A stretch of DNA of 21,149 bases. Origin: a virus. The notes below the pieces were generated by a model. That model ran no database searches. It was not told the origin of the DNA and saw only the letters and a list, made by a program, of their open reading frames with translations. The stretch lies in the IMG/VR virus record IMGVR_UViG_3300020430_001060, positions 1 through 21,149 of that record; one strand, written 5' to 3'. Every line of letters begins with the position of its first letter. Position 1 is the stretch's first letter. A program made the position numbers and the translations under genes. Shown piece after piece: positions 409 to 13,779 of this stretch.

Positions 409-437
409 ATTATACTATATTATAGTAAAGATGTCAA
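409..437 (-). promoter_or_regulatory. Perfect sigma-70-type promoter, TTGACA-N17-TATAAT
   Basis: On the minus strand the -35 hexamer TTGACA is at 437-432 and the -10 hexamer TATAAT at 414-409, separated by exactly 17 nt, so both match the bacterial consensus fully. The -35 lies inside the last codons of the preceding glycosyltransferase gene (it encodes Leu-Thr), so promoter and coding sequence overlap. The expected +1 is 402, the first base of the next ATG. The match suggests host-polymerase (early) transcription of the downstream gene independently of the island. Confidence 0.8.
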
Positions 438-1271
438 GCGTTTTATAGGTAATCCTTGAGATATTTCTTCAATAGTCCATTCTGTGTAAGCAATGTCATT
501 TAACCATTGTGTTCTATCAGGCATGACCGGTGTGTTAATTCGTGCAAGATTTGTAGTTCCTACATCATAAGCTAGACTGTCAGGTCCAACAAATACCGGA
601 ATACCTTGCATGACAGCCTGTGTTGCAGGATTACTAGACCAGTTTACAACAGCGTAAGCATCAGAGCAATCAAAGTCAAAGTCGTCATAAGTTCCTTCTA
701 AGTGTTTAGGGGTTTGTATAATTACGTTTGGAAATTCTATTTCTATTGAGGGAATAGGACACCTTGGATGCGGACGTACAACAATTTTTCTGTTTGTGTA
801 TTGACGTATTAATTCTATACAATCAAACACCCAACTTTGTACAGTCTTTTGATTGCGCCATTGGTGACTTTTATTGTGTTGACATGCAATAATTATATCA
901 CCTTGTTCGTTATTGTATTTCCAAGGAGTAAGTGTCAAACCAAGTTTCTTGGCACGAGAATCATCATTACCCTTAGGTCCAAAATTAGCTTCTCTGTTGA
1001 TACCGTCAAGTCCAACTTTCCAAGTGAGGCCTCTCTTTAAGCCTCCTACCTCTAATACAATTACTGGTCGTCCTTCGGCTTTTGCTCTTTCCCATATAGC
1101 TTTGTTTCTAGCCATACGACCATACCACAAAACACTCCAAATAACATCGACATCACTATCCAAATCATTGAAAGCAAGAGTATGACCGTTATCCAAAACG
1201 CTACAACCAAAGGCATCAAAAATAGGTTTAGAATTAAGTGCACCGTTATCTGTCCATAAACTAAATTTCAT
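420..1271 (-). CDS. GT-B-like glycosyltransferase, paralog family member A (capsule-polysaccharide type)
   Basis: A 283-aa soluble protein without signal peptide. Landmarks are a IIIACQ strand (about 126-131), RPHP (166-169), and a C-terminal block VVNWSSNPATQAVMQGIPVF (208-227), followed by a WLNDIAYTEWTIEEISQG tail. The Ser-rich turn, small-x-x-A, G-[IV]-P layout resembles the donor-binding lobe of GT-B enzymes such as capsular Kdo/polysaccharide transferases; that family link is inferred. The same blocks recur in the proteins at 2097-3041, 3034-3882 and 12567-13337, so it is one of four paralogs. It begins 11 nt inside the end of the upstream gene and has only a weak Shine-Dalgarno. Sugar donor and acceptor cannot be read from sequence. 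Its last codons carry the -35 box of the next promoter. Confidence 0.75.
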   Translation of the reverse strand: MKFSLWTDNGALNSKPIFDAFGCSVLDNGHTLAFNDLDSDVDVIWSVLWYGRMARNKAIWERAKAEGRPVIVLEVGGLKRGLTWKVGLDGINREANFGPKGNDDSRAKKLGLTLTPWKYNNEQGDIIIACQHNKSHQWRNQKTVQSWVFDCIELIRQYTNRKIVVRPHPRCPIPSIEIEFPNVIIQTPKHLEGTYDDFDFDCSDAYAVVNWSSNPATQAVMQGIPVFVGPDSLAYDVGTTNLARINTPVMPDRTQWLNDIAYTEWTIEEISQGLPIKRLTSLL

Positions 1272-2109
1272 TCCAGTATGCTTCTGTCCTATTCACCATT
1301 AGATCTTTTGACAAGCTCTTCTTTGTATTTTTTCTGTCACCTTTCATATGATCAATCCATGTGCCTAGTACAGAATTAATTAATGGGTGACCGCCTCCGC
1401 CTGTCTTTGCTGTTCTTATATACATTTCTGCACTGTAATCTAAAACTTCTGGATAGTAATCTTTCATAGCATTTAAAATGTTTCCAAACACGAACGAGTC
1501 GTGCCATTCTTCTAATTTGAATATACCATTTTCTGGATCTTGATATACACGTTCAAATTCTTTGAGAAAGTCCTGACAGATCGTATCTTTCAAATTCAAA
1601 CCATAAAATCCGCACTCTGGCCATGTTTGTGATCCTTTACCTCTACCTACATAGGTTAACCATTTGTCTGAAGGTAGCAAAGATAAAAATTGTTCGTATG
1701 ACCACGGACTATGTACAAACGTATCTGCATCCATCCATACACACCAGTCTGTGCTTCTTTGACAAGCGTCGAACACTGCATATACTTTATTTGCAAAACG
1801 TATTGCGTCCCACTTAAATTTTTTATGCCAGTCTCGTGGACGTCTTGCTTTTATTTCATCTGGTGGAATTCCGTTTGCTCTTGGATCATTTGCCCATCTT
1901 TCTTTAAACGCATTTAGCTTTGGTAAGTTTTGTTTTGCATCTAAAATAGTAATTTGATTTGGATCAGGATTTGTAGGAGAACAATCTTCAGCATATACAA
2001 GTAGAGTAATTCTTTTATCAACTTGTTTTGCAAAACTTTCTATGAAACGTTGCCCATACAAATCCATACCTGGTTTATGAAACGTTGTGCAAACTACTAT
2101 GTTGCCCAT
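1261..2109 (-). CDS. GT-A-fold glycosyltransferase with DAD motif
   Basis: A 282-aa protein probably transferring a sugar from a nucleotide donor in the cytoplasm. It opens with a beta-strand start (MGNIVVCTTFHKPG) and carries WCVWMDADTFVHSPW, with the metal-binding DxD (Asp127-Ala-Asp129) typical of GT-A enzymes. A later EEWHDSFVF segment (about 212-220) could supply the catalytic acid side. No membrane segment is seen. The start was set at the ATG at 2109 because GAGGG (2117-2121) lies 7 nt upstream; an in-frame ATG at 2133 would extend it 8 residues but lacks an equivalent site. It overlaps the upstream gene by 13 nt and the next by 11 nt, implying coupled translation. Family subtype and substrate are not determinable here. 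Confidence 0.78.
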   Translation of the reverse strand: MGNIVVCTTFHKPGMDLYGQRFIESFAKQVDKRITLLVYAEDCSPTNPDPNQITILDAKQNLPKLNAFKERWANDPRANGIPPDEIKARRPRDWHKKFKWDAIRFANKVYAVFDACQRSTDWCVWMDADTFVHSPWSYEQFLSLLPSDKWLTYVGRGKGSQTWPECGFYGLNLKDTICQDFLKEFERVYQDPENGIFKLEEWHDSFVFGNILNAMKDYYPEVLDYSAEMYIRTAKTGGGGHPLINSVLGTWIDHMKGDRKNTKKSLSKDLMVNRTEAYWNEI

Positions 2110-3041
2110 GACCAATCCCTCATATGTTTCCAACAGTCGCCGTTACGTAGTTCATCTAATCTCCAATGACTCATTGCTAATCTTCTTAACCATTGTTCTC
2201 TATCAAAATCTCTATTTGGATTTTCAATTTCTCTTATATCCGTATTGGCTACTTCTGCGGCTTGACTTCTAGCTGGATCTAAAACAAATACAGGAACTCC
2301 TTCTACCGCTGATACAACACCAGGACTACTGTTATAGCTAATAACACACCAAGCATCATGCATATCTTTTAATAAACTTACGCTAGGAGAAGAATATCTT
2401 ACCTTATGTCCTATAGCTTTTAATTGCATCATATGTTTATGGTTGTGTTTATCACCTGGATGAAACCTAACCATTATAGGTCTATCTGAATATCTTCTAA
2501 TGTTTTGCAGTAATAAGTGTAACCAATTAATAACAGCCATACCATCCATGCTCCAACCATTGTCTCTTTGACATGCGATTAGAATATATTCGCCAGTTGT
2601 TTTCCATGGTTTGATTTGTAACCCTAGTCTGTCACGCATCTCTGCCCAACGGTTTGCATTTATTTTTGAATCGCAATACTCTCCTGTGTTAGGAAATATA
2701 CCATCATAACTATATCGTAGATATGTATTCTTGTTACCAGGATCATATGCTAAAAATAAATTTGCATCTGCAATAATTGTTCTACGATTGATTGCTTTTT
2801 GTCCTTCTATTACTTGTCTTCTTAAGTTCAAATGCGGAACATGTTTACTACCAGGATGCACAAATCCTTGCAATAATCCTACGTCAGCAGGTTCATAATG
2901 AAACGTGTTAATTATTGTTCCCTTATCTCCTATCTTAGAAACTCCTTCTATAAAGTATTCTAACAGTTTAGGCTTTTCTGGATTTTTATTTCCAGGCGGA
3001 ATAGCTTTCATATAAGCATTTACTTTTAATTGATTAGTCAT
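2097..3041 (-). CDS. GT-B-like glycosyltransferase, paralog family member B
   Basis: At 314 aa this is the largest of the four GT-B-like paralogs. It shares with the protein at 420-1271 the series LGLQIKPW (about 139-146), ILIACQ (153-158), VRFHPGD (191-197) and the block VISYNSSPGVVSAVEGVPVF (233-252), then a REQWLRRLAMSHWRLDELRNG tail. This order of acceptor lobe, basic H-P strand, and Ser/Gly donor-binding turn suits GT-B enzymes related to capsule polysaccharide transferases. The match is by eye, not by profile. The ATG at 3041 has GAGGAG about 10 nt upstream and lies inside the end of the previous gene (8-nt overlap). No signal peptide or transmembrane helix is seen, so it should act in the cytoplasm or at the inner membrane face. 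Confidence 0.75.
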   Translation of the reverse strand: MTNQLKVNAYMKAIPPGNKNPEKPKLLEYFIEGVSKIGDKGTIINTFHYEPADVGLLQGFVHPGSKHVPHLNLRRQVIEGQKAINRRTIIADANLFLAYDPGNKNTYLRYSYDGIFPNTGEYCDSKINANRWAEMRDRLGLQIKPWKTTGEYILIACQRDNGWSMDGMAVINWLHLLLQNIRRYSDRPIMVRFHPGDKHNHKHMMQLKAIGHKVRYSSPSVSLLKDMHDAWCVISYNSSPGVVSAVEGVPVFVLDPARSQAAEVANTDIREIENPNRDFDREQWLRRLAMSHWRLDELRNGDCWKHMRDWSWAT

Positions 3042-3882
3042 AGAGTTCCATCTCCTCTATCAATCTTAGTGCATAACCATTTGAAAATTCGTTTATCGTA
3101 TACTGACAATAAGCAAGATAATGTAATAAATTTTTAAATTCGTCTGCTGAAGGATATGTTGGATCTTCTATCCTTGAAAGGTCTTTGTTTGCAACAGTAT
3201 CTACACAGGAAGGAGCCATTGTGAATGCTGGTATGCCATAGTGCATTGCCTCTAATGCGGCCATGCTTTGGTATGTAACCAAAGCCCATATATCTTCTTT
3301 GAAACATTGAGCGGCGACTGATTTATCCTTAATCCTGTCTGGCCTCAGTCCTTTATCTCTTACAATGATCTCTCTCTTGGTATATTTTCTTAGTTCTTGA
3401 ATAGTATCTTGTACCCATTTGTCCCTATCAACTTTATAAAATTGACATGGTTTTTCAGATGGTGTTACAAGTAGTATGGGTCCATTTTTTAATCTATTAC
3501 CAGCAGGCACCTTAAATCCGCCATATGTCATATACGGTGCCAAGTTACATAAAATATCAAATCTATCACTAGGCATGTTAGGCTTTGGCTTTGTATGTTG
3601 GATATTGTTTTTTACAACCCTATACCAAGTTTTTCTTTTCATTAAGTTACCAATGTATCCGTTATCTACGTAATAAAAAGTTCTTCCTGTTTCCCAACAT
3701 TTCCAAATTTCTTTACGTTTGGTCATGCTTCTGAAGGTAATAGGATATTCAATTGGCCATGGAGAATCATGCAATTTACTTGATATATCTTTTCTATCTA
3801 TAACAAGTGCATTTGTTCCGTGTTGCCAATGCTTTAGGATTTCATCAGTTCCATCCAGCATCAACATTTGCTTAGGCATCAT
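3034..3882 (-). CDS. GT-B-like glycosyltransferase, paralog family member C
   Basis: A 282-aa protein whose N-terminal half contains FYYVDNGYIGN (about 69-79), shared almost exactly with the protein at 12567-13337 (FFHIDNGYIGN). The C-terminal half has EIIVRDKGLRP, then LVTYQSMAALEAMHYGIPAF (201-220) and LAYCQYTINEFSNG (256-269), the family signature also found in members A and B. It therefore links the two subtypes: the D-N-G-Y-I-G-N pair (C and D) and the R-x-H-P pair (A and B). A sugar transfer role to a surface-type glycan is inferred. Two adjacent ATGs occur; the first (3882) is better spaced from a GGAG site. It overlaps the upstream gene by 11 nt and the downstream one by 8 nt. Confidence 0.75.
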   Translation of the reverse strand: MMPKQMLMLDGTDEILKHWQHGTNALVIDRKDISSKLHDSPWPIEYPITFRSMTKRKEIWKCWETGRTFYYVDNGYIGNLMKRKTWYRVVKNNIQHTKPKPNMPSDRFDILCNLAPYMTYGGFKVPAGNRLKNGPILLVTPSEKPCQFYKVDRDKWVQDTIQELRKYTKREIIVRDKGLRPDRIKDKSVAAQCFKEDIWALVTYQSMAALEAMHYGIPAFTMAPSCVDTVANKDLSRIEDPTYPSADEFKNLLHYLAYCQYTINEFSNGYALRLIEEMELYD

Positions 3883-4585
3883 TATTATTTGCTCCGTGCA
3901 TCATATTATGTAATTCATTTTTCCAAAGTTGATGATACGTGCAGTATCTATAATTTTCAAACCAAGGACCGCCTTCTGTATAGTGTATAGCTTTTGGTTT
4001 TCCATCTTCAGGTTCAGTATACCAATCTACCAACCAGTTCCATTCATGGCTTACTTCGCCAACTTCTGAATCGTCCAGCCAAGCAAATCTATGTAGATAT
4101 TTTCCTGTAGTGTCTGGATTGTTTACAAGTTCGGTTGTAACTGCTTTGTTCTTTTCATGCCCACAGTTCCATAACACCATTGAACTCCAATTTTTTCTTG
4201 GATATAATGTCTGTTGTTGTCCGTCCATTTTAGTACCTGGCTTCGGAGTGTGGTCATGATGGGCACACATTACTGCATACTTGTCGTCAGCTAAATCAAA
4301 TAGATTTTGAACATCTTCTAAAAATATAAAATCACAATCGCAAAACAATGCCCAACCGCTAAAGTTAGTAAGTTCAGGAATTAAAAATCTACTAAAGGTA
4401 AATTCAGTAGAACCAAGTTTGTCTGTGTCTCTTTTATACCAACCTTGTTCTCTTAAGTCAGTGAGTTTCAAAGGTATCACTTCTACATTTTTATTTCTTG
4501 CTTCAAGGCTGTGTTTACAAACCTGCCATGCTACATCTTCTCTGGTATCGTAACCAACAAATACTTTTAATTTATCTTCTTTCAA
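3872..4585 (-). CDS. GT-A-like glycosyltransferase with DCD motif; probable TTG start
   Basis: A 237-aa protein starting KEDKLKVFVGYDTRED, a nucleotide-sugar binding first strand as in GT8-like enzymes. It carries WALFCDCDFIFLEDV with the DxD at residues 83-85 and a later IHYTEGGPWFENY region, where GT8-type proteins often have a conserved His/Gly-Pro-W motif. It probably transfers a hexose from a nucleotide donor. The reading frame can be extended to an ATG at 4612, but that ATG has no Shine-Dalgarno. The TTG at 4585 has GGAGGA (4591-4596) 5 nt upstream, gives a 14-nt overlap typical of this operon, and places the first strand near the N-terminus, so TTG is preferred. Acceptor unknown. Confidence 0.75.
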   Translation of the reverse strand: MKEDKLKVFVGYDTREDVAWQVCKHSLEARNKNVEVIPLKLTDLREQGWYKRDTDKLGSTEFTFSRFLIPELTNFSGWALFCDCDFIFLEDVQNLFDLADDKYAVMCAHHDHTPKPGTKMDGQQQTLYPRKNWSSMVLWNCGHEKNKAVTTELVNNPDTTGKYLHRFAWLDDSEVGEVSHEWNWLVDWYTEPEDGKPKAIHYTEGGPWFENYRYCTYHQLWKNELHNMMHGANNNDA

Positions 4586-5342
4586 TGTCTTCCTCCACAC
4601 AGTTCTCACCATATTGTATTTCTACAACTTTCAAAGGCTTATCTGTTTCATTTGCCAGCATGTGCCATTGGCGTCTTGGAATGTGTAAAGACTTGTGTTT
4701 TTCATATGTATTAAGTGTAATATCTGTTGATACATCTAATCCGTAAACTGATGCTACTCCTTCTGATACAAACCAATGCTCTGCTCTTTGTTCATGGCGT
4801 TGCATACTTAATTTCTTTCCAGGGTCAACTGTAAGTTCTTTTACTTTCACGTGCGGACCATATTCATGCAACACTCGATAATATCCCCATTCCCTTTCGG
4901 TTTTAGGTTCTTTCCATTCCTGAAGTATCCAACTTGATGAATTTTTTTTGAAATCTCCACCGACACCAAAAGCAAACTCAACCTGTGAACTATCTCCATA
5001 CATAGTTAATTCTGGAATATTGTCTTTGTCTCTATCTCCGCCATTGGCGAAAATAATTTTTTTATTATGTGCTTGTGTACATTGTAATTTAAAAATTGCT
5101 CCACAGGCAGAACCATCTGAATCGTCCCACGACACAGTATCGTCCACCATTTTTAGATTACTAACAATAGCATGTCTTTCTGCAAAAGGCATAAATGGTC
5201 GACCCTTTTTCCTAGTTAACCATTCGTCGGTATTGACGCCTACTATTAATTTGTCACCTAGCTTTTTTGCTTCGTTGAATAAATCTATATGACCTGAATG
5301 AAGAGGATCAAATCCTCCCGTGACTAAAACAATACGTTCCAT
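4572..5342 (-). CDS. Fusion of an HxGH nucleotidyltransferase and a mannose-6-phosphate-isomerase-type cupin
   Basis: A 256-aa two-domain protein. Residues 1-145 form a cytidylyltransferase-like fold: VTGGFDPLHSGH with the HxGH nucleotide-binding motif at 15-18, IVGVNTDEW, ANGGDR (99-104) and an SSSWI segment (135-139) in the place of the family's C-terminal Ser/Thr motif. This class includes RfaE2/HldE and TagD enzymes, which activate sugar or polyol phosphates with CTP or ATP. Residues about 151-246 are a cupin like the C-terminus of type II phosphomannose isomerases: WGYYRVL, VKVKELTVDPGKKLSMQRHEQRAEHW (metal-site type His residues at 183 and 189), and HIPRRQWH. The known partner of that cupin is a GT-A guanylyltransferase, so this pairing is unusual. 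Likely it makes an activated sugar precursor for the island; product uncertain. No clear Shine-Dalgarno precedes the ATG, but an ATAAATA box does. Confidence 0.82.
   Translation of the reverse strand: MERIVLVTGGFDPLHSGHIDLFNEAKKLGDKLIVGVNTDEWLTRKKGRPFMPFAERHAIVSNLKMVDDTVSWDDSDGSACGAIFKLQCTQAHNKKIIFANGGDRDKDNIPELTMYGDSSQVEFAFGVGGDFKKNSSSWILQEWKEPKTEREWGYYRVLHEYGPHVKVKELTVDPGKKLSMQRHEQRAEHWFVSEGVASVYGLDVSTDITLNTYEKHKSLHIPRRQWHMLANETDKPLKVVEIQYGENCVEEDIERR
4591..4596 (-). promoter_or_regulatory. Strong Shine-Dalgarno GGAGGA supporting a TTG start
   Basis: GGAGGA on the minus strand lies 5 nt before the TTG at 4585 and inside the last codons of the nucleotidyltransferase-cupin gene. The alternative ATG at 4612 is preceded by AAATACAAT with no comparable site, so this element decides the start of the glycosyltransferase at 3872-4585. 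Confidence 0.6.
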
Positions 5343-5347
5343 GTAGA

Positions 5348-5355
5348 TATTTATG
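5348..5355 (-). promoter_or_regulatory. Late-promoter-like box CATAAATA 5 nt before an ATG
   Basis: In the 20-nt gap before the nucleotidyltransferase-cupin gene, the minus strand reads CATAAATA, matching 7 of 8 positions of the T4 late box TATAAATA. It ends exactly 5 nt before the ATG at 5342, so transcription would begin at or next to the start codon. There is no Shine-Dalgarno. In an AT-rich genome this could be chance. Confidence 0.4.
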
Positions 5356-5362
5356 TACGCAG

Positions 5363-6034
5363 TTATTTACTGGTTGTTGATTTGATGCCTTGGCATTTTG
5401 TTATGTATGGTTTGTAACAACGGATCCACGGACAAAGTTGTTTGCACATTATGGCATCATTTGGCCACCAACCTATGTCTTCTTGTAGTTGCATTACTTC
5501 ACGTGCCGCTTTAGGAAATATAACATAGGCACTGTGTCCTGGTAATCCTTGAGGCACATCATTACCAGTAAGCCAAGGAACCTCGTTTACTCCGTTATGT
5601 AACTGTTTGTCATATTCTTTTGCCGAGAACGTAGCACCTATTGGATTGTTTATACTTATAGCACCTTCATCTGGCCACCATTCCAAAATTCCCATATCAA
5701 ATTGTTTTGTAAAAATAGCATCATGTTCTAAGATTAAGATTGGACGATTGAGTGATACACATTTACGCCAAAGCATGTAATGACTCTGTGCCGCCGCTAT
5801 ACGTTTATTGTTATCATAAGTTTTGTAAGCAGAAAGTATTAATCCAGTTTTAGGGCACTTTTGTTTTTTCCTTAAAGGCCAAGTGTAATTTACTTGCCAC
5901 ATGTTTTCAGGAGTTATTGCAGGAAATTTTTGCACATCTAAATGAGATTTCGTATCTATTATACTTTGCACACAACGATCAGAAAACATTTCACTGTCCT
6001 CATGTCCTTGTATGTAAATTACAAATGCGTCCAT
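5363..6034 (-). CDS. GT25-like (LPS-type) glycosyltransferase, 223 aa
   Basis: A 223-aa protein organised like glycosyltransferase family 25 (LPS galactosyltransferase type). It has an opening AFVIYIQGHEDSEMFSDRC, a middle helix RIAAAQSHYMLWRKCV (78-93), then ILILEHDAIF with Glu-His-Asp at 103-105 in the place of the family's E-D-D/DxD metal site, then GLPGHSAYVIFPKAAREVM (163-181) and WWPNDAIM (189-196). The same segments occur in order in the protein at 10468-11037. It probably adds a hexose to a growing glycan. Stop and start abut the upstream gene (TAAATG), giving tight coupling; the usual Shine-Dalgarno is not evident. The His in the metal motif makes activity worth testing. Confidence 0.75.
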   Translation of the reverse strand: MDAFVIYIQGHEDSEMFSDRCVQSIIDTKSHLDVQKFPAITPENMWQVNYTWPLRKKQKCPKTGLILSAYKTYDNNKRIAAAQSHYMLWRKCVSLNRPILILEHDAIFTKQFDMGILEWWPDEGAISINNPIGATFSAKEYDKQLHNGVNEVPWLTGNDVPQGLPGHSAYVIFPKAAREVMQLQEDIGWWPNDAIMCKQLCPWIRCYKPYITKCQGIKSTTSK

Positions 6035-6622
6035 TTATTTTTCTATTTTTAAAATATAACTGTCTTGTTTCTTTTTACTACGCCAATCGTGATGTGTCAC
6101 TTTATATTTTCCTATTGATTCTAACAGCTGGCTCCATTTTTCATGTGTGAAATCTTGTGCATGACTTTTAATCCACGGATGGTTCATGCTTACCTTATCT
6201 AAATTCCATACATCTTCTATGTAATATGTGTCTGTAAATTCTATTAGGTTTTCAAATGTTTTACGCTGTCCATCCGGAGTATGCAACCCGTCATCAATAA
6301 TAAAATCAAATTTTACATTTAATTTTTTGAAATAATCATAGCACTCCTTAGAAGTACTATCTAGTACTGCGTATTTTACTCTAATATTATTCAACATAGG
6401 AAGAGCAGTAGGATGTACTCTTTCGAATGTATCAATAGTATAAATGTCTGCATTTATAAAATAGTCTAACCATACATTTATACTTTCGCCCCTAAATGTT
6501 CCGACTTCTAAAATATTAATATTTTTCTTACGTAGGTGTTCGAAGTCAGCTTCATACAGTTCACTGTAGTTGTGCCAAATTTTTTCACAACTATGTTTTT
6601 TAAAAAGTTCTATCATGTTCAT
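6035..6622 (-). CDS. SAM-dependent methyltransferase-like protein, 195 aa
   Basis: A 195-aa class I methyltransferase-like protein. ILEVGTFRGES (37-47) is motif I for SAM binding, followed by YTIDTFERV (61-69), the acidic end of the second strand. FDFIIDDGLHTPDGQRKTFENL (106-126) and YYIEDVW (133-139) match the metal-associated Asp/His pattern of Methyltransf_24-type and cephalosporin-hydroxylase-like proteins of sugar clusters. It could O-methylate a sugar or nucleotide sugar. ATG at 6622 has GAGG 7 nt upstream and overlaps the stop of the upstream methyltransferase by 4 nt, so the two are a coupled pair. The pair shares fold but little direct sequence, so they probably act at different positions. 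Confidence 0.75.
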   Translation of the reverse strand: MNMIELFKKHSCEKIWHNYSELYEADFEHLRKKNINILEVGTFRGESINVWLDYFINADIYTIDTFERVHPTALPMLNNIRVKYAVLDSTSKECYDYFKKLNVKFDFIIDDGLHTPDGQRKTFENLIEFTDTYYIEDVWNLDKVSMNHPWIKSHAQDFTHEKWSQLLESIGKYKVTHHDWRSKKKQDSYILKIEK

Positions 6623-7191
6623 AGTTGTACCTCAAACTGATCTGTATGAAAATTATTTAAAGTATATCCAGTGTTTTTAATAAATTGGTCAACAGCATCT
6701 TTTACTCCTTGTTTTTTCGGACCATAATCATCTCCCAAAAGTTTTCCTCCTGGTTTGATAAATTTAACTGCATTTGTTAAATCATGAAGACAGCCGTTGT
6801 AGGAATGACTTGCATCAACATAGATCCAGTCAAGTTGTCCAGTAAATGTGTTAAACCATTCTGATGTTGGCATTCTATGAATAGTAACAGGCCTTCCATA
6901 AAACCTTGTCTTTACACCTTCATAGATTTTATCATAATATTTTTTGAAGCCTTCTGTAGTTGCTTCGCCTGTAAGTTTTGAATATCTATCTAAATATGCC
7001 TGGTAGCCACCAAATTCATTTGATTCTTCAAAAACTTCTGGTGCCCATGCATCGACTAAATGAATATGTGTGGCACGTTTTAGAAACTTGAGAGAACTGT
7101 CACCTTTCCAGACACCTAGTTCTGCACCAACGCTATATTCGGGTATACGTTTCCAAGTTTCGTCTGTTCCTGGATTGTTGCCAAACATCAT
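6619..7191 (-). CDS. SAM-dependent methyltransferase (Methyltransf_24 type), 190 aa
   Basis: A 190-aa protein with AELGVWKGDSS (23-33) as the SAM-binding glycine loop, IHLVDAW (43-49) ending the second strand in Asp, and LDWIYVDASHSYNGCLHDL (120-138), the VDASHSYxxxxxDL motif of Methyltransf_24 enzymes, then IKPGGKLLGDDYG (145-157). This strongly suggests a class I methyltransferase acting on a sugar hydroxyl, as relatives do in O-antigen and rhamnose-methylation clusters; the substrate is inferred. An 18-nt gap separates it from the upstream gene; AAGGA lies 9 nt before the ATG at 7191 (a second Met follows at once). Its stop overlaps the next methyltransferase start by 4 nt. Confidence 0.8.
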   Translation of the reverse strand: MMFGNNPGTDETWKRIPEYSVGAELGVWKGDSSLKFLKRATHIHLVDAWAPEVFEESNEFGGYQAYLDRYSKLTGEATTEGFKKYYDKIYEGVKTRFYGRPVTIHRMPTSEWFNTFTGQLDWIYVDASHSYNGCLHDLTNAVKFIKPGGKLLGDDYGPKKQGVKDAVDQFIKNTGYTLNNFHTDQFEVQL

Positions 7192-7209
7192 AACATTTTT
7201 TCCTTCATG

Positions 7210-7902
7210 TTATTTAATGTCTTGAGCAAAGCCATGCACACTACTGTGAATGTCACCATAAGGTTCACTTAACAACTGATACCAACCCCATTGGGCAGGT
7301 AGTAAGGCATGATTGTTTACAAGTTTTCTAACCAATGCATGATCAAAATGTTTTCTATGATGTATTATTACAGAACTTGGCAGGAAGCCAAACCAATCAT
7401 CTTCTTTATTGTCACTGTTGGCTGGAACTTCTACAATTTTGCCACTGCCGAACTCTGGTCCTCTATTTTCTCTTGTCATAAATCCAACAGGTCCTTTTTC
7501 ATATGCTTTTCTTAGCCAATGATTTAAATCTACTTGCCTGTCTATTTGAGTATTGTAGTCTAATCTCATAATTAAATCAAACCTAATTGGTATCTTTTTA
7601 AGCAGATCAGAATATTGTATCATAGGCACTATACCAAAATATAATTCGTCCCACATTAATTTTTTGTCAACATATTTTGCGAACTTGCCATGTTTAGCAA
7701 TAGCTTTTGCCTGCATAGGATGGTAATGCCATTTTGGATAATGCATAGTATATAATCTCTCATGAAAATTAGCAGGAATAAGATTTGTTTTATTTGTAAA
7801 TGAATGGAAATATAAATTTGCTTCAGGCAACTTACGCTGTAATTGTTCTATTACAGGAGAATTTTTGTCGTTCACTCCGGTAAAACAAATTGCTAGTTGC
7901 AT
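7210..7902 (-). CDS. Putative GT-A-like transferase with RLD motif, 230 aa
   Basis: A 230-aa soluble protein. It starts MQLAICFTGV, a hydrophobic first strand, and has FDLIMRLDYNTQID (108-121), in which Arg-Leu-Asp replaces a canonical DxD. The same D-x-I-x-R-x-D layout occurs in phage and bacterial proteins annotated as glycosyltransferase-like, and the surrounding genes support that reading. A later VGFMTRENRGPEFGSGK and PSSVIIHHRKHFDHALV segment (about 174-191) is consistent with a nucleotide-diphospho-sugar fold. It overlaps the upstream sulfotransferase by 10 nt. The lack of a full DxD makes function less certain than for the other transferases; an inactive or metal-independent variant is possible. 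Confidence 0.55.
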   Translation of the reverse strand: MQLAICFTGVNDKNSPVIEQLQRKLPEANLYFHSFTNKTNLIPANFHERLYTMHYPKWHYHPMQAKAIAKHGKFAKYVDKKLMWDELYFGIVPMIQYSDLLKKIPIRFDLIMRLDYNTQIDRQVDLNHWLRKAYEKGPVGFMTRENRGPEFGSGKIVEVPANSDNKEDDWFGFLPSSVIIHHRKHFDHALVRKLVNNHALLPAQWGWYQLLSEPYGDIHSSVHGFAQDIK

Positions 7903-8561
7903 GTGTAATTTTTCCTTGCAGAAGTATCAAAATCAAAATTCCAATAGTCGATATCTTCCTTATACCAGTCGGCTATTTCTTGTATTGTTTTGCTGTTGTA
8001 CAATTCTCTATAATTGACTTTGATACTTGTAACATTTCTTGCTCGCGGCATTGTTGATATTTGTAAGTACTTTGGTGCTTCTTCGTTTAAGTGTTCTAAT
8101 CTTAATATATCACATACAACATTGTTGTTGTGATCTTTTACATGATGTTTTTGTGGCCACCAACCTCGTATAGCCCTATACCAAGTCAAAGGCTTATTGC
8201 CCCATTGATGACGTTCTTCTATAAAATGATCTAAGGATTTTACATTTGCATATTCTGGTTTTACAAGTCCTCTATCTATAGCTTGTTTGGCGAAAAGATA
8301 TCTACTTACAACTTTGCTCCACGGATTGCGTATAATAGCAAAAGCCTTGTGTTGCATTGTAATATTAGGATTCACATCTATCCATCTAGCATGTTCAACG
8401 CCCTTTGTATCTCTCTCGCCATAGCTTTCCATAGTTTGTTTGAAACCTTTGAAATCTGTGATCCATTTCTTATTGACTGGTAAGATTTTATCTTGAAAAA
8501 TCTCACTTTCTCTGATTGTTACTCCGCCGTTTTTTGGAATGTGTATAAAAAGTTTTTTCAT
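7893..8561 (-). CDS. PAPS-dependent sulfotransferase, 222 aa
   Basis: A 222-aa protein with the two cofactor motifs of the sulfotransferase family. FIHIPKNGG (5-13) is the 5'-phosphosulfate loop, and AIIRNPWSKVVSRYLF (75-90) is the 3'-phosphate-binding RxPxxRxxSxY-type element. ILRLEHLNE (152-160) and a C-terminal YKEDIDYWNFDF (200-211) fit Sulfotransfer_2-like proteins, which are typically 200-300 aa. It would move sulfate from host PAPS to a carbohydrate hydroxyl. Key basic residues (Lys10, Arg78, Ser86) are present, so it looks active. It lies between a GT-like gene and a DUF6165-like gene; its start overlaps the upstream stop as ATGA. No membrane anchor is seen, unlike Golgi relatives. 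Confidence 0.82.
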   Translation of the reverse strand: MKKLFIHIPKNGGVTIRESEIFQDKILPVNKKWITDFKGFKQTMESYGERDTKGVEHARWIDVNPNITMQHKAFAIIRNPWSKVVSRYLFAKQAIDRGLVKPEYANVKSLDHFIEERHQWGNKPLTWYRAIRGWWPQKHHVKDHNNNVVCDILRLEHLNEEAPKYLQISTMPRARNVTSIKVNYRELYNSKTIQEIADWYKEDIDYWNFDFDTSARKNYTCN

Positions 8562-8938
8562 TTGTAGTTTGTATATTCCTTTTCTTCTATAACATCTGAG
8601 TAAGTAAGAACATTTATTTTTCTTTTTAATTCTGCACGTTTGTCATTATACAAATATACATTTCTAGAAAGTTCAATAAAATCATAACCAAAATTATTTT
8701 CAGCTTCGCATTTCCTTTTAGAGTTTTCTATGTCCCATAATTTCAAATTAATTTCATATAGATTATCTGCAAGATGTTTTATTTCAGCTCCGTGATTACC
8801 AACTTTTGCTTCTAAGTATATTAATTCTTTATTAATATTGAAAAGTTTTTTCTCGTCCTTTATTTTTACTTTTTTAATTTGTAGGATAGTAATCTTATCA
8901 AGCAGTTCACCATATGACACTTCTATTTTAACTTTCAT
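8558..8938 (-). CDS. DUF6165-like small protein of glycan clusters, 126 aa
   Basis: A 126-aa charged protein, predicted almost wholly helical and probably coiled coil. Its N-terminus IEVSYGELLDKITILQIKKVKI (5-26) matches the VSxGELxDKxTILxIKxxRI signature I associate with DUF6165 proteins, small proteins found beside glycosyltransferase genes. That recall is unverified. No catalytic motif is visible, and a structural or adaptor role in a transferase complex is possible but not shown by sequence. The gene sits between a GT9-like gene and the sulfotransferase, overlapping them by 11 and 4 nt. The ATG at 8938 lies inside the end of the upstream frame with only a distant GGGAT site. Confidence 0.65.
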   Translation of the reverse strand: MKVKIEVSYGELLDKITILQIKKVKIKDEKKLFNINKELIYLEAKVGNHGAEIKHLADNLYEINLKLWDIENSKRKCEAENNFGYDFIELSRNVYLYNDKRAELKRKINVLTYSDVIEEKEYTNYK

Positions 8939-9689
8939 TTATTTTTATCCCATTATCTTTTGCTCTGTGCATGTGATGACTCCATTTATTTTGATGGCTT
9001 GTTGTATATATGTGTATGTCTGAAGGAGCAAAATATACTTGGCTAAGATGTAAGAATCCACTATCGATACCAACATGATATTTTGCTTGTGTCATTGCGT
9101 ATGCAATATGTTTTAAACTATCTCTTAGTAAATGATTATTTGCTTGTCCTCCTACAGTAACAACTTCATAATCTTGATATTTTGATAATATCTTTGCCTG
9201 CCATTTATTATCCATACTTCTTCTTTTAGATGTAGAATCCCATTGCACAGTGATAAACTTTTTTGGTAAATTTAAATCATTACTACAATCTTCAGCAGAT
9301 AATTGTGGGAAATGTTTTAGATAATTTGTTAGATCAATACCTTCTTTGGGCTCAAACCTTTGCGGATAATCTCCATATATTTGCCCTTGTGCATTACTGT
9401 ATTGTTGTCTTACATAGTCTACAAAGTCTTGATTGCTTGTTGGTTCATAATTTAGATGTGGCATAATTGCAACACTTCCTTTAGGAAACAAAGATAAAAT
9501 TTCTGGCCAACTTTGAGGCTTATGCCGGTTCCATTGGTACTTGGTTAAATGTAACATAACCGGTGTATTTTCAATCACACCATAATTATATGACAACAAT
9601 ATACTATGAACCCTATCGCCTAATCCTGGAGCACCGTAATGAAAATTTTTCTTTACTGTGCTGTAAGCTCTCATTACCAAGTGTTTCAA
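8928..9689 (-). CDS. GT9-like (heptosyltransferase-fold) protein with TTG start
   Basis: A 253-aa protein with features of ADP-heptose:LPS transferases (GT9). PGLGDRVHSILLSYNYG (21-37) resembles the N-terminal GLGD-x-x loop, FITVQWDSTSKRR (145-157) the mid-protein strand with basic residues, VVTVGG (176-181), and HVGIDSGFLHLSQ (205-217) the conserved G-x-D-[ST]-G-x-x-H-[LI]-[AS] donor-site motif. It is shorter than typical GT9 enzymes (about 320-350 aa), so it may be a reduced version. The start is TTG at 9689: GGAGG (9697-9701) lies 7 nt upstream and TTGA overlaps the upstream TGA by 4 nt. An in-frame ATG at 9674 lacks a nearby ribosome site. Donor sugar is unknown. Confidence 0.72.
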   Translation of the reverse strand: MKHLVMRAYSTVKKNFHYGAPGLGDRVHSILLSYNYGVIENTPVMLHLTKYQWNRHKPQSWPEILSLFPKGSVAIMPHLNYEPTSNQDFVDYVRQQYSNAQGQIYGDYPQRFEPKEGIDLTNYLKHFPQLSAEDCSNDLNLPKKFITVQWDSTSKRRSMDNKWQAKILSKYQDYEVVTVGGQANNHLLRDSLKHIAYAMTQAKYHVGIDSGFLHLSQVYFAPSDIHIYTTSHQNKWSHHMHRAKDNGIKINES

Positions 9690-10471
9690 CCTATTGCCTC
9701 CATAAGTGCTTGAACGTTTTCTCCGTGTTGTGGTAAAAGATCTTTTAAGAAAAAATGTATAAATCTTGCTTCTTGCAATCTTGAATCTTCTATTCCTTTA
9801 TACAAGCCGTTCCATCTCCAATCCATGTTAAGTGTTGGTATGCTATCTTTCTTTACCCAGTAGTTCAATAACATTTGATCTGTTGACCATTTTCGATATC
9901 CTATACCATCTACAAAATCCTTGAACTCTGGTCTGCGTATAAATTCTTCTGCTGTCTGTCCTTTAAGATATGGTAAAAATTTTTTACTATTAATCACCAT
10001 CATTCCCATATTATAAAATTCTGCTCCCAGTTGATTCCATTTCCAATCAACATCTGTTAAATTTTCAAAAGCAGACTTTGAATATTTTCTAATTTTAGAT
10101 TTATATTTTTTTGCACAAGGTAATTCTCTTTCTGCAACTGCACCAAAGGCATATTCTTCTGTTAAGTCCCAAAAAATATTTGGTGAATCTTGTCTAATAT
10201 AAATGTCACTATCTATAATTGCAACTTGCTCGTAGTCATGTAAATGTGTAAATGCATTTTCTTTTTCGTAGATAGGCATATACCCTAGCCGTTCAACTGC
10301 TTCTTTACTTCGACCAGTCCTTGACATATCTGGCCTAATTTTAAGTATAGGTTCTCGTTGTACTATGTGTGTCATACTGTATTTGTTACAGTAATTTGCT
10401 ACACTCTGGATACAGTGTTCATATAGTTTACTTTGCTTACCAACTGCAACTTGATAAATCATTCTTTTCAT
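9686..10471 (-). CDS. GT-A-like glycosyltransferase with DSD motif, 261 aa
   Basis: A 261-aa protein with a GT-A layout: the first strand MIYQVAVG, and QVAIIDSDIYIRQDSPNIFWDL (82-103) holding the DxD at residues 87-89. Further on, WNQLGAEFYNMGMMVINSKKFLPYL (about 145-169) is the conserved F-N-x-G-[VM]-[ML]-x-x-N element of GT8-like and related enzymes. RKWSTDQMLLNYW follows, the D-Q-x-x-L-N motif that positions the acceptor. This ordered set makes a retaining sugar transferase likely. It has AAAGGA 6 nt before the ATG at 10471, which overlaps the upstream stop as ATGA. No signal or membrane segment is seen. Donor and acceptor cannot be predicted. Confidence 0.82.
   Translation of the reverse strand: MKRMIYQVAVGKQSKLYEHCIQSVANYCNKYSMTHIVQREPILKIRPDMSRTGRSKEAVERLGYMPIYEKENAFTHLHDYEQVAIIDSDIYIRQDSPNIFWDLTEEYAFGAVAERELPCAKKYKSKIRKYSKSAFENLTDVDWKWNQLGAEFYNMGMMVINSKKFLPYLKGQTAEEFIRRPEFKDFVDGIGYRKWSTDQMLLNYWVKKDSIPTLNMDWRWNGLYKGIEDSRLQEARFIHFFLKDLLPQHGENVQALMEAIG
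9697..9701 (-). promoter_or_regulatory. Shine-Dalgarno GGAGG deciding a TTG start
   Basis: GGAGG on the minus strand is 7 nt before the TTG at 9689, which overlaps the stop of the preceding gene as TTGA. The next ATG in frame (9674) would sit 22 nt from this site, so TTG is the better start for the GT9-like gene. Confidence 0.6.
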
Positions 10472-11037
10472 TTGAGGTCCTTTGTAAAACTCATTGCGTC
10501 TGATTTATATGTTACTTTATTTTCTCTGTCAAAAATCATTTCTACTATACCATCGCATAACAACCAGTCGGATGGCATAGCACCATTGTTATGTACCCAA
10601 TCTAAAATCTTCTTTGCTCCTGTTGGAGTAATTTTATAAGCCCTAGCACCTTCATACCAATTTCCTGGTGCAATAGGTTTTGCTTTTTTGAAGCCTTCAA
10701 ATTTATAAACATCACATTCTTTAATTGTACCCATTGGCTTATTGAATATTACATCATGTTCAAATATACACAATGATTGTTGGCTTACAAAGGCTTTTTG
10801 CCACAGTAAATATTGGCTTAAAAAACAACCTACAGTGCCTGGACGTTGCATGTATCTTTGACATTTTTTGTTTACTTTACTTGCAAATAAATTATAATCT
10901 TCAAGAGTTACATGTTGTCCGTTAACACCTTCGTATAACTGAACGTTCCAATCGTGCTTCTTTCCGGTAGTCATAGCTCTTTCTGCCATTGCTACACTGT
11001 TAGGAAAATCTGGTAAAAATATTATATGTCCTATCAT
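10468..11037 (-). CDS. GT25-family-like glycosyltransferase, 189 aa
   Basis: A 189-aa protein with the run of motifs expected of LPS glycosyltransferase family 25. N-terminal substitution-prone segment VAMAERAM, VQLYEGVNGQ (32-41), the diagnostic GTVGCFLSQYLLWQKA (67-82), CIFEHDVIF (90-98) with Glu-His-Asp at the metal-site position, GARAYKITPTGAKKIL (130-145) and MPSDWLLCDGIV (154-165). It is slightly shorter than typical members (about 230-260 aa). It is a paralog of the protein at 5363-6034; both have EHD where the family usually has EDD. It overlaps both neighbours by 4 nt (ATGA junctions). The role is probably addition of a hexose to a surface-type glycan. Confidence 0.8.
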   Translation of the reverse strand: MIGHIIFLPDFPNSVAMAERAMTTGKKHDWNVQLYEGVNGQHVTLEDYNLFASKVNKKCQRYMQRPGTVGCFLSQYLLWQKAFVSQQSLCIFEHDVIFNKPMGTIKECDVYKFEGFKKAKPIAPGNWYEGARAYKITPTGAKKILDWVHNNGAMPSDWLLCDGIVEMIFDRENKVTYKSDAMSFTKDLK

Positions 11038-11897
11038 AACTCTATGTTTTCGGGTAAATCTCTAAGTTCTCTATAAATTTTTTCTTTCCAGTGAGGTGGT
11101 AACCAATTCAGCTGTGCTGACTTAAAACGTTTATCATTCTTCTTATCACCTTTGCCTGTAGAAAATATATCATGTCTTTTTTGTCCCCAAGCATTCCATT
11201 TGTAAGGAATATTACCCCAAGGTCTACCTTCTGTGTTCCATTCTCGCATTACATTACGCAAAACATCTTGATCGACATACCAGTATATTTCTTTTTCAAA
11301 TGCTTCTATCATGCGTTTGCTAAAAAGTTCTCTAAACATAATTCCATTTTGTCCTGTGCCTAAACAAATTGCACTTGCAATAAACACACTTGGATCTTTT
11401 GGTTTTGGCATCACACAAACATGTCTTGTCAAATCTTGAAATTCGTTTTGGAAAAATCCGTTACGTAAAACAGTGTCACAATCTACTTGTAAAATATGTT
11501 GTGAATCATATTTGAATAGATGTGCGATTCGCATAAATCTTACACTGGCAAGATAAGTTCTCCTTGCTATGTAATCTAAGTCATCCGTTTTAAAAATATG
11601 CTGTCCTTCTTTCATACGTTTTTTATTTTTAGCAAGATTTTTGTAAAAGTCTTGGTTTACATCTTCATACGTGTATGTAAATTTATAATCTTTGGACATT
11701 GTATCTAAGACGTTTACATCCATGTTGCCTTCATTAATGATGTGACAATGTACATGCATCCAACCTAAAGTCCTGTTTATACTTTGTGCTAATGCATATC
11801 CATGTCTGTCAAAATAATCATAATCGCAACTAAAAAATACAATATCTTCTATATCTTTTGGTACTATGGTACCATGTAATTGAGGTAATCTAAACAT
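11034..11897 (-). CDS. GT-A-like glycosyltransferase with DCD motif, 287 aa
   Basis: A 287-aa protein. DIVFFSCDYDYFDRHGYALAQSI (18-40) is a nucleotide-sugar-type first strand and helix, ARRTYLASVRFMRIAHLF (111-128) the helix that precedes the metal site, and HILQVDCDTVLR (134-145) carries the DxD at 139-141. A later IMFRELFSKR and WYVDQDVL segment supplies a DQ-x-[VL] element like that in GT8-type enzymes. This order supports a nucleotide-sugar transferase. AGGAG lies 8 nt before the ATG at 11897. It overlaps the FkbM gene by 8 nt upstream and the GT25-like gene by 4 nt downstream. Sugar specificity unknown. Confidence 0.78.
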   Translation of the reverse strand: MFRLPQLHGTIVPKDIEDIVFFSCDYDYFDRHGYALAQSINRTLGWMHVHCHIINEGNMDVNVLDTMSKDYKFTYTYEDVNQDFYKNLAKNKKRMKEGQHIFKTDDLDYIARRTYLASVRFMRIAHLFKYDSQHILQVDCDTVLRNGFFQNEFQDLTRHVCVMPKPKDPSVFIASAICLGTGQNGIMFRELFSKRMIEAFEKEIYWYVDQDVLRNVMREWNTEGRPWGNIPYKWNAWGQKRHDIFSTGKGDKKNDKRFKSAQLNWLPPHWKEKIYRELRDLPENIEL

Positions 11898-12570
11898 CAG
11901 GACTGCTCCTTGGTCGAAAACCTAACACAGCATTTTTTTCTCCTTTGCCAAGTTTTCTAATTAGTCTATACCCTAATGGCATAAGAATTTTTCTAATACT
12001 ATCTCTTTCATATCCGTATCGTTGTGGATGATCTTTTCTTTCATATAAAATAATTGGTGAGCATCTTTTGATTGTTTCCAATGCACCTTTTGCCACTAAA
12101 GGTTCATATCCTTCTGCATCTATTTTTATAAAATCTACATTTTGCAAATTAAAACTATCTAAAGTTTTTATTCTATATTTGCCATCCTTTTTATCTGGAT
12201 CAACATGTGTACCAAAACTTTTATTTGTTGTTTTAATAGACACTTCTTTTTCTTGATCTCCTAAACCTACCGGGTGTGTTGTGCAATTATAAACTTTCTT
12301 CATATTCAAATTATACTGTAAGTGTGGAAGTAAATCTGTGTTAAGTTCAAATGCATGAACATGTTCGAAAGATTCTGATAGTCTATATGCAGTTATTCCA
12401 ACATGAGCTCCTATATCTACTGCAATACGTAATTTTGAACAGTGTGATATTGCTGTTTGTAATTCTAAATTTTGATACTCTTCAATTTGCCCCATGCCTT
12501 GTTTCTTAGCACTTTTTAAACAAATATCATTCTTGATTGTTCTCCAACCATCTAACTCTATATAATTCAT
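11890..12570 (-). CDS. FkbM-family SAM methyltransferase, 226 aa
   Basis: A 226-aa protein of the FkbM type, which O-methylates sugars and macrolide-like hydroxyls. The SAM loop is AVDIGAHVGITAYRL (50-64), the second strand ends in VHAFELN (71-77), LLPHLQYNLNM (80-90) follows, and the family-defining VDFIKIDAEGYEPLVAKGA (145-163) is complete, with PIILYE (172-177) afterwards. All expected motifs are present in order and spacing, so it should be active. It begins with an ATGA overlap on the upstream GT-B-like gene. In this island it probably methylates a sugar of the glycan, capping or tuning it. Confidence 0.88.
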   Translation of the reverse strand: MNYIELDGWRTIKNDICLKSAKKQGMGQIEEYQNLELQTAISHCSKLRIAVDIGAHVGITAYRLSESFEHVHAFELNTDLLPHLQYNLNMKKVYNCTTHPVGLGDQEKEVSIKTTNKSFGTHVDPDKKDGKYRIKTLDSFNLQNVDFIKIDAEGYEPLVAKGALETIKRCSPIILYERKDHPQRYGYERDSIRKILMPLGYRLIRKLGKGEKNAVLGFRPRSSPDV

Positions 12571-13337
12571 TGTTTTACCTGATACTTAAATGTGCATTGC
12601 CAAGCAACTCCACTTTGATAATCACTTCTATCAAATTGACTCCAAGCGATGTGTTCTAGCATTTCATTTCTGTCAAAATTTATTTTATTTTGCCAATGTT
12701 GTACTGCACTTTGTCCAAGGATTTCAATTGGCTTTCCTAGACATAAAGCCTCTACTGCGGCCATACTATGATATGTAATTACTTTCTTTGCTTTCTTCAT
12801 CATAGGAATAATTTCCTGCCATCTTTGCTTTCGTTTTCCTATTTTTTCTCTTATCACTAAAGGCCCTTGTCCTTCGTAGTATTTAATAGTTTTGTCTCTC
12901 CAGGATTTGTAGTCTTCTCCCATAAACTTAAATATGTTACTGTTATTAGGCATCACAAGTAAATTGTAATCGCCATGTGGATCCCATTGTCCCCAAAGAC
13001 TGTCGTCAATCTCAAGAAGTTTTCTCCTACTTTCACTTACTGGTTTGACAACTGTATTTTGTAATGAATTATAACTTATACGATAATGCATAGGACGTTT
13101 ATGTTTGTGATTACCTATGTAACCATTATCTATATGGAAAAAATTTATTGATTTATCTTTTATAATTGCATCAAATACCCAGTCATCAAATGGATGACTG
13201 AATGCTAGATATCTGTCTTTCTCGATTTCGTCAGCTGAAGAAATTGTCTTTACATCACAATCACTGTAAAGATAGGTAAAAATTTGACCTCTAAGTTTTT
13301 TACTATTTTCTGGAACTTGAAACTTATAAGGAAGCAT
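12567..13337 (-). CDS. GT-B-like glycosyltransferase, paralog family member D; first gene of the island
   Basis: A 256-aa protein, the shortest of the four GT-B-like paralogs. It carries FFHIDNGYIGN (66-76), the signature shared with the protein at 3034-3882, then LVIREKIGK (160-168) and VITYHSMAAVEALCLGKPIEI (186-206), the family's Ser/Ala donor-site turn followed by G-K-P. The C-terminal tail HIAWSQFDRSDYQSG (229-243) matches the tails of its paralogs. A capsule-type sugar transfer role is inferred. It overlaps the end of the UvsY-like gene by 14 nt, so the island is directly joined to the recombination operon and may share its transcript; AGG about 8 nt upstream is a weak ribosome site. 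Confidence 0.75.
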   Translation of the reverse strand: MLPYKFQVPENSKKLRGQIFTYLYSDCDVKTISSADEIEKDRYLAFSHPFDDWVFDAIIKDKSINFFHIDNGYIGNHKHKRPMHYRISYNSLQNTVVKPVSESRRKLLEIDDSLWGQWDPHGDYNLLVMPNNSNIFKFMGEDYKSWRDKTIKYYEGQGPLVIREKIGKRKQRWQEIIPMMKKAKKVITYHSMAAVEALCLGKPIEILGQSAVQHWQNKINFDRNEMLEHIAWSQFDRSDYQSGVAWQCTFKYQVKQ

Positions 13338-13779
13338 CTTCCATGCCTGCTACTCTTAACTTGACTACGTTAGTAATCTGCCACTGTTTTTGGTCAAGTC
13401 CTTTTAGCAAGCCGAGCCACTTGTTTCGCAAAAGTGCAAATTCGTTTATGATCTTTTCATAGTCAACTACATCTGCTTCACCGTCAACGTACTTCTCAAC
13501 GTCTCTACTAGACAAAGCTCTTTGATAATTTTCAAGATATTTTTTGAAAAATGTACTACGTAATCTACGTAACTCAATGTTGAGATAATTAAGAATTGCT
13601 TCTATTTCTTGCAGTTGTGCAAACCGTTGTTCAACGATGCCGGGCATTTCTGCCGCGGCACGTTCAACATTACCTTTTAACTTTACTTCTACTCTTGCAG
13701 TAGCTAGTTCAGATTCAAAATGCGATATTGCATCAGGTATTTTGTTTACATCTCTTGCAACTTCAGAATACCAACCCAT
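13324..13779 (-). CDS. uvsY: UvsY-like recombination mediator
   Basis: A 151-aa protein, close to the 137 aa of T4 UvsY, which loads the UvsX recombinase onto gp32-coated single-stranded DNA. Direct identity is low, but the C-terminal region YEKIINEFALLRNKWLGLLKGLDQKQWQITNVVKLRVAGME (about 107-147) has the pattern of UvsY: a helix ending in a W-x-x-LL core, a turn, then a [KR]-x-[WF]-x-I-x-[NH]-x-x-x-[LM]-[RQ] strand. The rest is helical and rich in Arg/Glu, fitting a helical hexamer-forming protein. It sits two genes after uvsX and three after gp32, as a mediator would. The assignment is by pattern and neighbourhood. Start ATG overlaps the upstream stop by one base (TAATG). Confidence 0.65.
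   Translation of the reverse strand: MGWYSEVARDVNKIPDAISHFESELATARVEVKLKGNVERAAAEMPGIVEQRFAQLQEIEAILNYLNIELRRLRSTFFKKYLENYQRALSSRDVEKYVDGEADVVDYEKIINEFALLRNKWLGLLKGLDQKQWQITNVVKLRVAGMEDASL

Follow-up and report, generated by a model that had tools for sequence, protein, structure and literature searches.

A conserved core and an exchangeable cassette form a candidate late glycan-assembly locus between uvsY and uvsW in a phage lineage related to Rak2 and 121Q

Introduction

Large T4-like cyanophages, including P-SSM2, S-SSM7 and S-SM2, carry lipopolysaccharide (LPS) gene clusters, and whether these clusters function or are 'stuffer DNA' is an unresolved question (PMC3037559, PMC2984593). LPS genes have been reported from 76% of PGC_C, a cyanophage-like marine jumbo cluster (PMC9123017), and the core genes of moraphages include four glycosyltransferase groups (PMC12619734). 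In mycobacteriophages, according to the citation of Freeman et al. 2023 in PMC12619734, capsid and tail-tube subunits have been shown to carry a glycan. Here we analyse a glycan-gene island downstream of uvsY in the IMG/VR virus record IMGVR_UViG_3300020430_001060; the window is the entire 21,149-bp contig, and its genes are numbered W01 to W26.

The island resembles the cyanophage LPS clusters in that many glycosyltransferase (GT) and sugar-modifying genes are gathered in a marine T4-related phage, vary between phages and have no proven function. The cyanophage clusters lie near hli03/phoH and tRNAs (PMC3037559), whereas the island occupies a fixed uvsY–uvsW site on a Rak2/121Q-type backbone and, unlike those clusters, joins an exchangeable cassette to a conserved core that has a late-type motif. 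As in bacterial group 2 capsule and O-antigen loci, conserved genes accompany a type-specific block that can be interchanged (kps region 2, PMC12887879), but the island lies within a phage replication and recombination run, and no initiating phosphoglycosyltransferase or flippase was found on the phage contigs searched. As in the mycobacteriophage system, in so far as the citing paper describes it, the phage is proposed to glycosylate its own particle with glycosyltransferases that it encodes; here, however, the system is known from its genes and has a larger, cassette-like gene set. A literature search of the open-access subset, which may miss an earlier description, returned nothing describing this locus. 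The fixed uvsY–uvsW site, the division into core and cassette with a late-type motif, and a family with a Kdo (3-deoxy-D-manno-oct-2-ulosonic acid)-transferase fold that lacks the catalytic Asp appear to be new.

Results

We compared more than 200 IMG/VR loci, fetched via UvsX, W20, W12 and W24. The common layout is UvsX-W06-UvsY-[cassette]-W20-W21-(W22)-W23-W24-W25-W26-UvsW, and the island site is fixed between uvsY and uvsW in relatives. Among 80 W24-centred loci, W25 was found in 80, W23 in 79, W21 in 78, UvsW in 68 and W20 in 66; these counts are lower bounds, as the loci are cut at their ends. One subgroup (L265-L285) is without W20. The interval between uvsY and W20, by contrast with this core, ranges from 8 bp to 9,339 bp, and clustering at 45% identity sorts its 223 open reading frames (ORFs) into 92 clusters. 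Where the UvsX proteins of two phages are 85-90% identical, a mean of 9% of their cassette clusters is common to both, and 179 of 320 such pairs have none in common, though both members have genes there. None of the 12 cassette genes of the window is present in loci with UvsX 88% identical to its own. The cassette type of the window nevertheless recurs in many contigs, with gains and losses, and every island gene has homologues in the same order in other contigs. All 18 island genes are under purifying selection (dN 0.04-0.23, with dS near saturation). The locus is thus a near-universal core, W20-W25, joined to a cassette that is exchanged wholesale (W08-W19, 12 genes, in the window), in place of the single 18-gene unit of the preliminary description; the core has its own late-type motif. 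The island and its left boundary read as follows.

13324-13779, minus strand: W07, UvsY, the fixed left boundary of the locus (PHROG UvsY 7e-15; 69 spanning loci)
12567-13337, minus strand: W08, GT-B-like, Kdo-transferase-fold superfamily, cassette (hhalign to W22 E=3e-25)
11890-12570, minus strand: W09, FkbM methyltransferase, cassette (PF05050 1.5e-13)
11034-11897, minus strand: W10, putative GT-A, unconfirmed, cassette (invariant D139xD141 only)
10468-11037, minus strand: W11, GT25, cassette (PF01755 4.5e-11)
9686-10471, minus strand: W12, GT8, cassette (PF01501 4.7e-6, over the cut-off)
8928-9689, minus strand: W13, possible GT9 (heptosyltransferase-like), weak, cassette (PF01075 0.056 and TIGR02193, heptosyltransferase I, 6e-4, both under the cut-off)
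8558-8938, minus strand: W14, DUF6165 protein, cassette (PF19662 1e-8)
7893-8561, minus strand: W15, sulfotransferase, cassette (PF03567, Sulfotransfer_2, 1e-5, over the cut-off; PHROG galactose-3-O-sulfotransferase 1e-6)
7210-7902, minus strand: W16, conserved protein, unconfirmed GT-A-like, cassette (mean column identity 76% in relatives)
6619-7191, minus strand: W17, Methyltransf_24, cassette (5.6e-14)
6035-6622, minus strand: W18, methyltransferase, cassette (Pfam 2.8e-5, just under the cut-off; PHROG 1.2e-10)
5363-6034, minus strand: W19, GT25, last cassette gene (PF01755 4e-11)
4572-5342, minus strand: W20, nucleotidyltransferase and cupin fusion, first core gene (PF01467, PF01050; PDB profile matches; NCBIfam)
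3872-4612, minus strand: W21, GT8-like with invariant D92xD94, core (PF01501 6e-6)
3034-3882, minus strand: W22, Kdo-transferase-fold superfamily, core, absent from some relatives (hhalign to W23 E=3e-36)
2097-3041, minus strand: W23, Kdo-transferase-fold superfamily, core (hhalign to W25 E=4e-54)
1261-2133, minus strand: W24, predicted GT6-fold glycosyltransferase with invariant D135xD137, core (AlphaFold2; Foldseek GT6)
420-1271, minus strand: W25, GT-B with the predicted fold of retaining Kdo transferases, core (AlphaFold2; Foldseek WbbB/KpsC/KrkA)

The run of 18 co-directional minus-strand ORFs from 13337 to 420, coupled to uvsY, is present as described from the letters alone. Counted from uvsY, 15 of 18 junctions overlap, by 14, 4, 8, 4, 4, 4, 11, 4, 10, 4, 41, 11, 8, 37 and 11 nt; the other three are a gap of 18 nt (W16-W17), an abutting pair (W18-W19) and a gap of 20 nt (W19-W20). 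The earlier count of 15 is therefore right, whereas the range given with it, 4-14 nt, is exceeded by the overlaps of 41 and 37 nt, which are measured from longest-ORF starts and would become 4-14 nt with later in-frame starts. The claim that nearly all the products are transferases or sugar-modifying enzymes is borne out for 15 of the 18 proteins, which profile, fold or hhalign comparisons support as transferases or as sugar-, methyl- or sulfate-modifying; W10, W13 and W16 are unproven. The Pfam search that the preliminary description proposed gave nine matches over the cut-off (W09, W11, W12, W14, W15, W17, W19, W20 and W21), with W18 just under it and backed by PHROG. Family matches also uphold the sugar-activating fusion (W20) and the methyl (W09, W17 and W18) and sulfate (W15) tailoring genes. 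For W10 and W16, family searches gave no match, and W10 was rejected as a distant paralogue of W24 or W21, because hhalign aligns the DxD stretch only.

Glycan chemistry also prevails in the cassettes of relatives. The families that predominate among 88 cassette representatives are methyltransferases, GT25, GT29, epimerase/dehydratase, sugar dehydrogenase, sulfotransferase and pyruvyltransferase. The remark that sugar-nucleotide epimerases and dehydratases are missing thus holds for the window but not for relatives, the cassettes of which include epimerase/GDP-mannose-dehydratase-like and UDP-glucose-dehydrogenase genes.

In about 25 loci, W24 lies on the opposite strand, with the orientation of its neighbours kept and sometimes with an extra gene of around 180 amino acids (L095:11759-12604, L011:19139-20014, L113:9710-10558 and some 20 further loci). 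A shadow ORF was ruled out as the explanation, as opposite-strand homology scores reach 538 bits.

The right boundary of the cassette is marked by a short motif that recurs before virion genes.

5348-5354, minus strand: late-type motif ATAAATA at -12 of W20, the right cassette boundary (TAAATA at -11 in 51/67 unique upstreams)
20272-20277, minus strand: late-type motif TAAATA before the W02 terminase gene (same region in 19/35 terminase upstreams)
18677-18683, minus strand: late-type motif ATAAATA before W03 (same region in 26/39 W03 upstreams)

A second, partly overlapping W20 set gave TAAATA in 51 of 77 upstreams, and the W20 motif usually stands without a Shine–Dalgarno sequence. Across 1,167 upstreams, 65 copies of ATAAATA stand at -12, against roughly one at most other positions. 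The motif also precedes several genes for proteins of 387-464 amino acids, one of which was matched to the tail-tube gene of Phosso. The motif is absent upstream of ssb and UvsY, was seen in 2 of 85 UvsX upstreams, and precedes almost no cassette gene. In cultured relatives, W03 homologues, tail-tube genes and some other structural genes have it about 27-38 nt upstream, together with a Shine–Dalgarno sequence. ATAAATA looks like a T4-type late promoter, and its -12 spacing suggests nearly leaderless late mRNAs. The core accordingly stands apart from most of the cassette in its upstream motif, and it may be expressed together with virion genes.

The core enzymes were related to known folds through predicted structures. 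The AlphaFold2 model of W25 (predicted local distance difference test, pLDDT, 94.7) returned WbbB, KpsC or KrkA as all of its 23 best PDB matches (Foldseek, template-modelling (TM) score 0.40-0.56), and that of W24 (pLDDT 90.1) returned GT6 enzymes as top PDB matches (TM around 0.4). On these models, W25 and W24 are glycosyltransferases, of the retaining-Kdo-transferase fold and GT6, respectively. Profile–profile comparison, taken with the predicted fold of W25, unites W08, W22, W23 and W25 in one superfamily with the retaining Kdo-transferase fold; sequence profiles of W23 and W25 gave no useful match to solved chains. In retaining Kdo transferases, QXXXD carries the Asp nucleophile and (K/R)XHP binds cytidine monophosphate (CMP) (PMC12887879, PMC9587256). 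RXHP is present in 30 of 31 W23-type and 28 of 28 W25-type sequences. In the other motif, the Gln is kept and the Asp is replaced by Gly or Ser (QXXXG in core W23 and QXXXS in core W25), with the Asp retained only in divergent paralogues (4/31 W23-type and 3/28 W25-type). W22 and W08 are without both QXXXD and RXHP. The family therefore shares with WbbB (GT99), KpsC (GT107) and KrkA (GT140) the fold, seen in W25, and the CMP-binding motif, seen in W23 and W25, but differs in having no Asp nucleophile in core W23 and W25, neither motif in W22 and W08, and no sequence-level match; it is structurally related to Kdo transferases, yet not filed as such. The preliminary description held that the number of transferases is enough to specify a long defined oligosaccharide; because three of the glycosyltransferases are unproven and W08 and W22 are without both donor-site motifs, gene count does not fix glycan length.

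W20 joins a TagD/ECT/HldE-type nucleotidyltransferase to a type II mannose-6-phosphate-isomerase cupin. Full-length fusions of the W20 type are chromosomal in SAR11 and SAR86 (L126, L128, L158 and L168), where the neighbours, named by sequence inspection only, are an apparent polA in SAR11 and an apparent gyrA in SAR86. Recent capture from SAR11 was rejected, as most phage copies form their own deep clades, and hence no host is put forward. In the Rhodobacteraceae Water_Bin34 contigs (L159, L166 and L136), a W20 homologue lies about 6 kb from a terminase homologue, and these may be phage contigs of another group.

The remaining genes of the window place the phage.

20322-21092, minus strand: W01, glycine-rich putative structural protein (weak PHROG tail matches)
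18680-20263, minus strand: W02, terminase large subunit, TerL (Pfam Terminase_6N/6C)
16227-18671, minus strand: W03, virion structural protein (PHROG virion structural)
15135-16109, minus strand: W04, gp32-like ssb (PHROG 7e-60)
14021-15082, minus strand: W05, UvsX (PHROG UvsX 4e-69)
13779-14018: W06, acidic 79-amino-acid protein between UvsX and UvsY, kept across the lineage (no known family)
409-437, minus strand: sigma70 consensus TTGACA-17-TATAAT, which would start W26 and close the island (sigma70-like in 12/19 W26 upstreams)
1-402, minus strand: W26, N-terminal part (precedes UvsW in relatives)

W26 is around 400-450 amino acids long in relatives and matched no Pfam family. The nearest UvsX proteins are all from jumbo phages (Phosso, 69% identity; Atu_ph07 and XaC1, 67%; Vibrio 2.275.O, 64%; 121Q, 63%), and the order TerL-structural-ssb-UvsX-UvsY is common to the window and to Rak2/121Q/Atu_ph07-type jumbo phages. 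By these UvsX matches and this gene order, the window phage belongs with the Rak2/121Q/Atu_ph07-type jumbo phages; a cyanophage-type reading of the marine T4-like kinship named in the preliminary description is not supported. No glycan island lies downstream of UvsY in Phosso, Atu_ph07, XaC1, Vibrio 2.275.O or 121Q, in which UvsY is followed by small genes, a nuclease/exonuclease-like gene and then UvsW. The window itself is a 21-kb fragment; the lineage is probably jumbo-sized, because the same locus sits on 335-kb and 153-kb contigs of a Neomarinimicrobiota metagenome-assembled genome (MAG) with UvsX 85% identical to that of the window. Contigs L127 (PBPT01000016.1) and L129 (PBPT01000082.1) of MAG RS350 carry near-identical copies of the locus and represent the same jumbo phage lineage. 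The presence of the 335-kb phage contig in that MAG may be a binning artefact, and Neomarinimicrobiota was not used as a host assignment.

Homologues of island genes occur in other phages. In Caulobacter jumbo phages, including CcrColossus, a W23-like gene adjoins a W21-like gene; in CcrColossus itself, W25-like, sialyltransferase-like and then W23/W21-like genes lie directly after giant tail genes and ahead of the lysis genes. These phages differ from the window in having few such genes, in their tail/lysis location and in the lack of a link to UvsY. W24 and W25 homologues neighbour TerL in the podovirus ct7QV12, and S-SCSM2R has a W21 homologue near KdsA/KdsB. In the Pelagibacter phage Mosig EXVC030M (MT647606, ~125700-130700), a single overlapping run comprises methyltransferase genes, W24, W21, a pair of W22-type genes and a sulfotransferase gene, but its island is smaller, lies beside RuvC/ribonucleotide reductase and is without W20, and its 141-kb genome is classed in Kyanoviridae. 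This Mosig island of methyltransferase, GT and sulfotransferase genes (L206:10796-16630), homologous to the core, was previously unremarked.

Searches for enzymes of other pathways were made in the phage records. PF02397 (initiating Bac_transf) matched in none of eight records searched, most of which are fragments, and PF01943 (Wzx-type flippase) matched on no phage contig of eight records, its sole match being on another contig of the MAG bin. No thymidylate-synthase/hydroxymethylase-type gene was found on the phage contigs searched, which include the 335-kb and 203-kb records and several fragments; the one match of this type came from a different contig in the MAG bin. A Tet_JBP search matched neither the phage contigs nor the controls and is hence uninformative.

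Discussion

Our preferred reading, to which we give a rough probability of 0.5, is a locus that assembles a glycan late, with an outer chemistry that can be swapped, and that probably serves to decorate the virion rather than host lipo-oligosaccharide (LOS). In such a scheme, W20 would turn host intermediates into an activated sugar or polyol; the core enzymes, up to five of them glycosyltransferases, would assemble a base oligosaccharide on a fixed acceptor; and the cassette enzymes would lengthen it and add methyl and sulfate caps to give a type-specific glycan. The acceptor would be a virion (tail or capsid) protein, so that cassette exchange would alter the exposed chemistry of the particle. 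A virion acceptor seems most likely in view of the apparent expression of the core alongside virion genes and of the homologues beside the tail genes of CcrColossus; it is further favoured by the TerL-adjacent homologues, the near-universal core and the failure to find initiating or flipping enzymes in the records searched. A bolder version, possible but less likely than not, is antigen switching by the phage for its own particles, with the late core laying a base glycan on a virion protein via a new family of Asp-less Kdo-fold transferases that keep the CMP-site motif, and wholesale cassette exchange at the uvsY-W20 boundary setting the type; these transferases would therefore need another mechanism or donor.

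Several points weigh against a virion glycan made late. The late function of the motif is read from sequence, and the glycan on the virion is deduced from genes. None of the cassette genes of the window, W08-W19, has the late motif, and they are coupled to uvsY; genes unrelated to glycans (redoxin and radical SAM) occur in some cassettes, the CcrColossus homologues also adjoin the lysis cassette, and enzymes of the LPS-core type could act on host LOS.

That last point leads to host-surface remodelling, in which lipid A-core or LOS would be modified at the cytoplasmic face and exported by the host, blocking superinfection or the sticking of progeny to debris; we consider this possible, with the odds against it. 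GT8, GT25 and the possible GT9 are typical LPS-core families, and such enzymes work at the cytoplasmic face, with lipid A-core as substrate, and do not require a flippase of their own. The earlier argument that the lack of a flippase calls for a soluble or virion acceptor consequently does not follow. The Kdo-transferase fold would also suit an LPS substrate, the variability is like that of surface-antigen loci, late action would suit progeny release, and remodelling is the usual reading of cyanophage LPS clusters (PMC2984593). On the other hand, the core is near-universal though UvsX in the lineage spans 65-100% identity, and across such a range one would expect variation in host LOS cores; the late-type motif speaks against early superinfection exclusion, and the tail-adjacent homologues point to the particle.

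It is unlikely that the uvsY-W20 interval is simply a hypervariable insertion hot spot that gathers unrelated accessory genes with no single glycan function. The redoxin, radical SAM or 2-oxoglutarate-oxygenase genes of some cassettes are in keeping with this idea, as is the proposal that cyanophage LPS clusters are 'stuffer DNA' (PMC3037559), but glycan and methyl-transfer families dominate the cassettes, the order and content of the window-type cassette are kept in many contigs under purifying selection, and the core is conserved. DNA hypermodification, with the transferases decorating a modified base of the phage genome, is very improbable: the locus adjoins recombination and replication genes, and some phage GTs are known to hypermodify DNA (Pyle et al. 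2024, as cited in PMC12619734), but the GT families here differ from known DNA GTs, sulfate transfer would not be expected, and the phage contigs searched gave no gene of the thymidylate-synthase/hydroxymethylase type.

Marine phages have long been known to carry glycan gene clusters for which no function has been proven. The lineage described here offers a clean comparative system, with a single site, a single conserved core, numerous exchanged cassettes and a promoter motif suggestive of timing. Given that the cultured phages Mosig, of Pelagibacter, and CcrColossus, of Caulobacter, carry homologues, the choice between a virion and a host glycan is directly testable. The nucleophile-less Kdo-transferase-like family would be of interest to glycosyltransferase enzymology. 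If virion glycans are type-switched in this way, they would add, on the side of the phage, a kind of diversity comparable to that of bacterial O-antigens.

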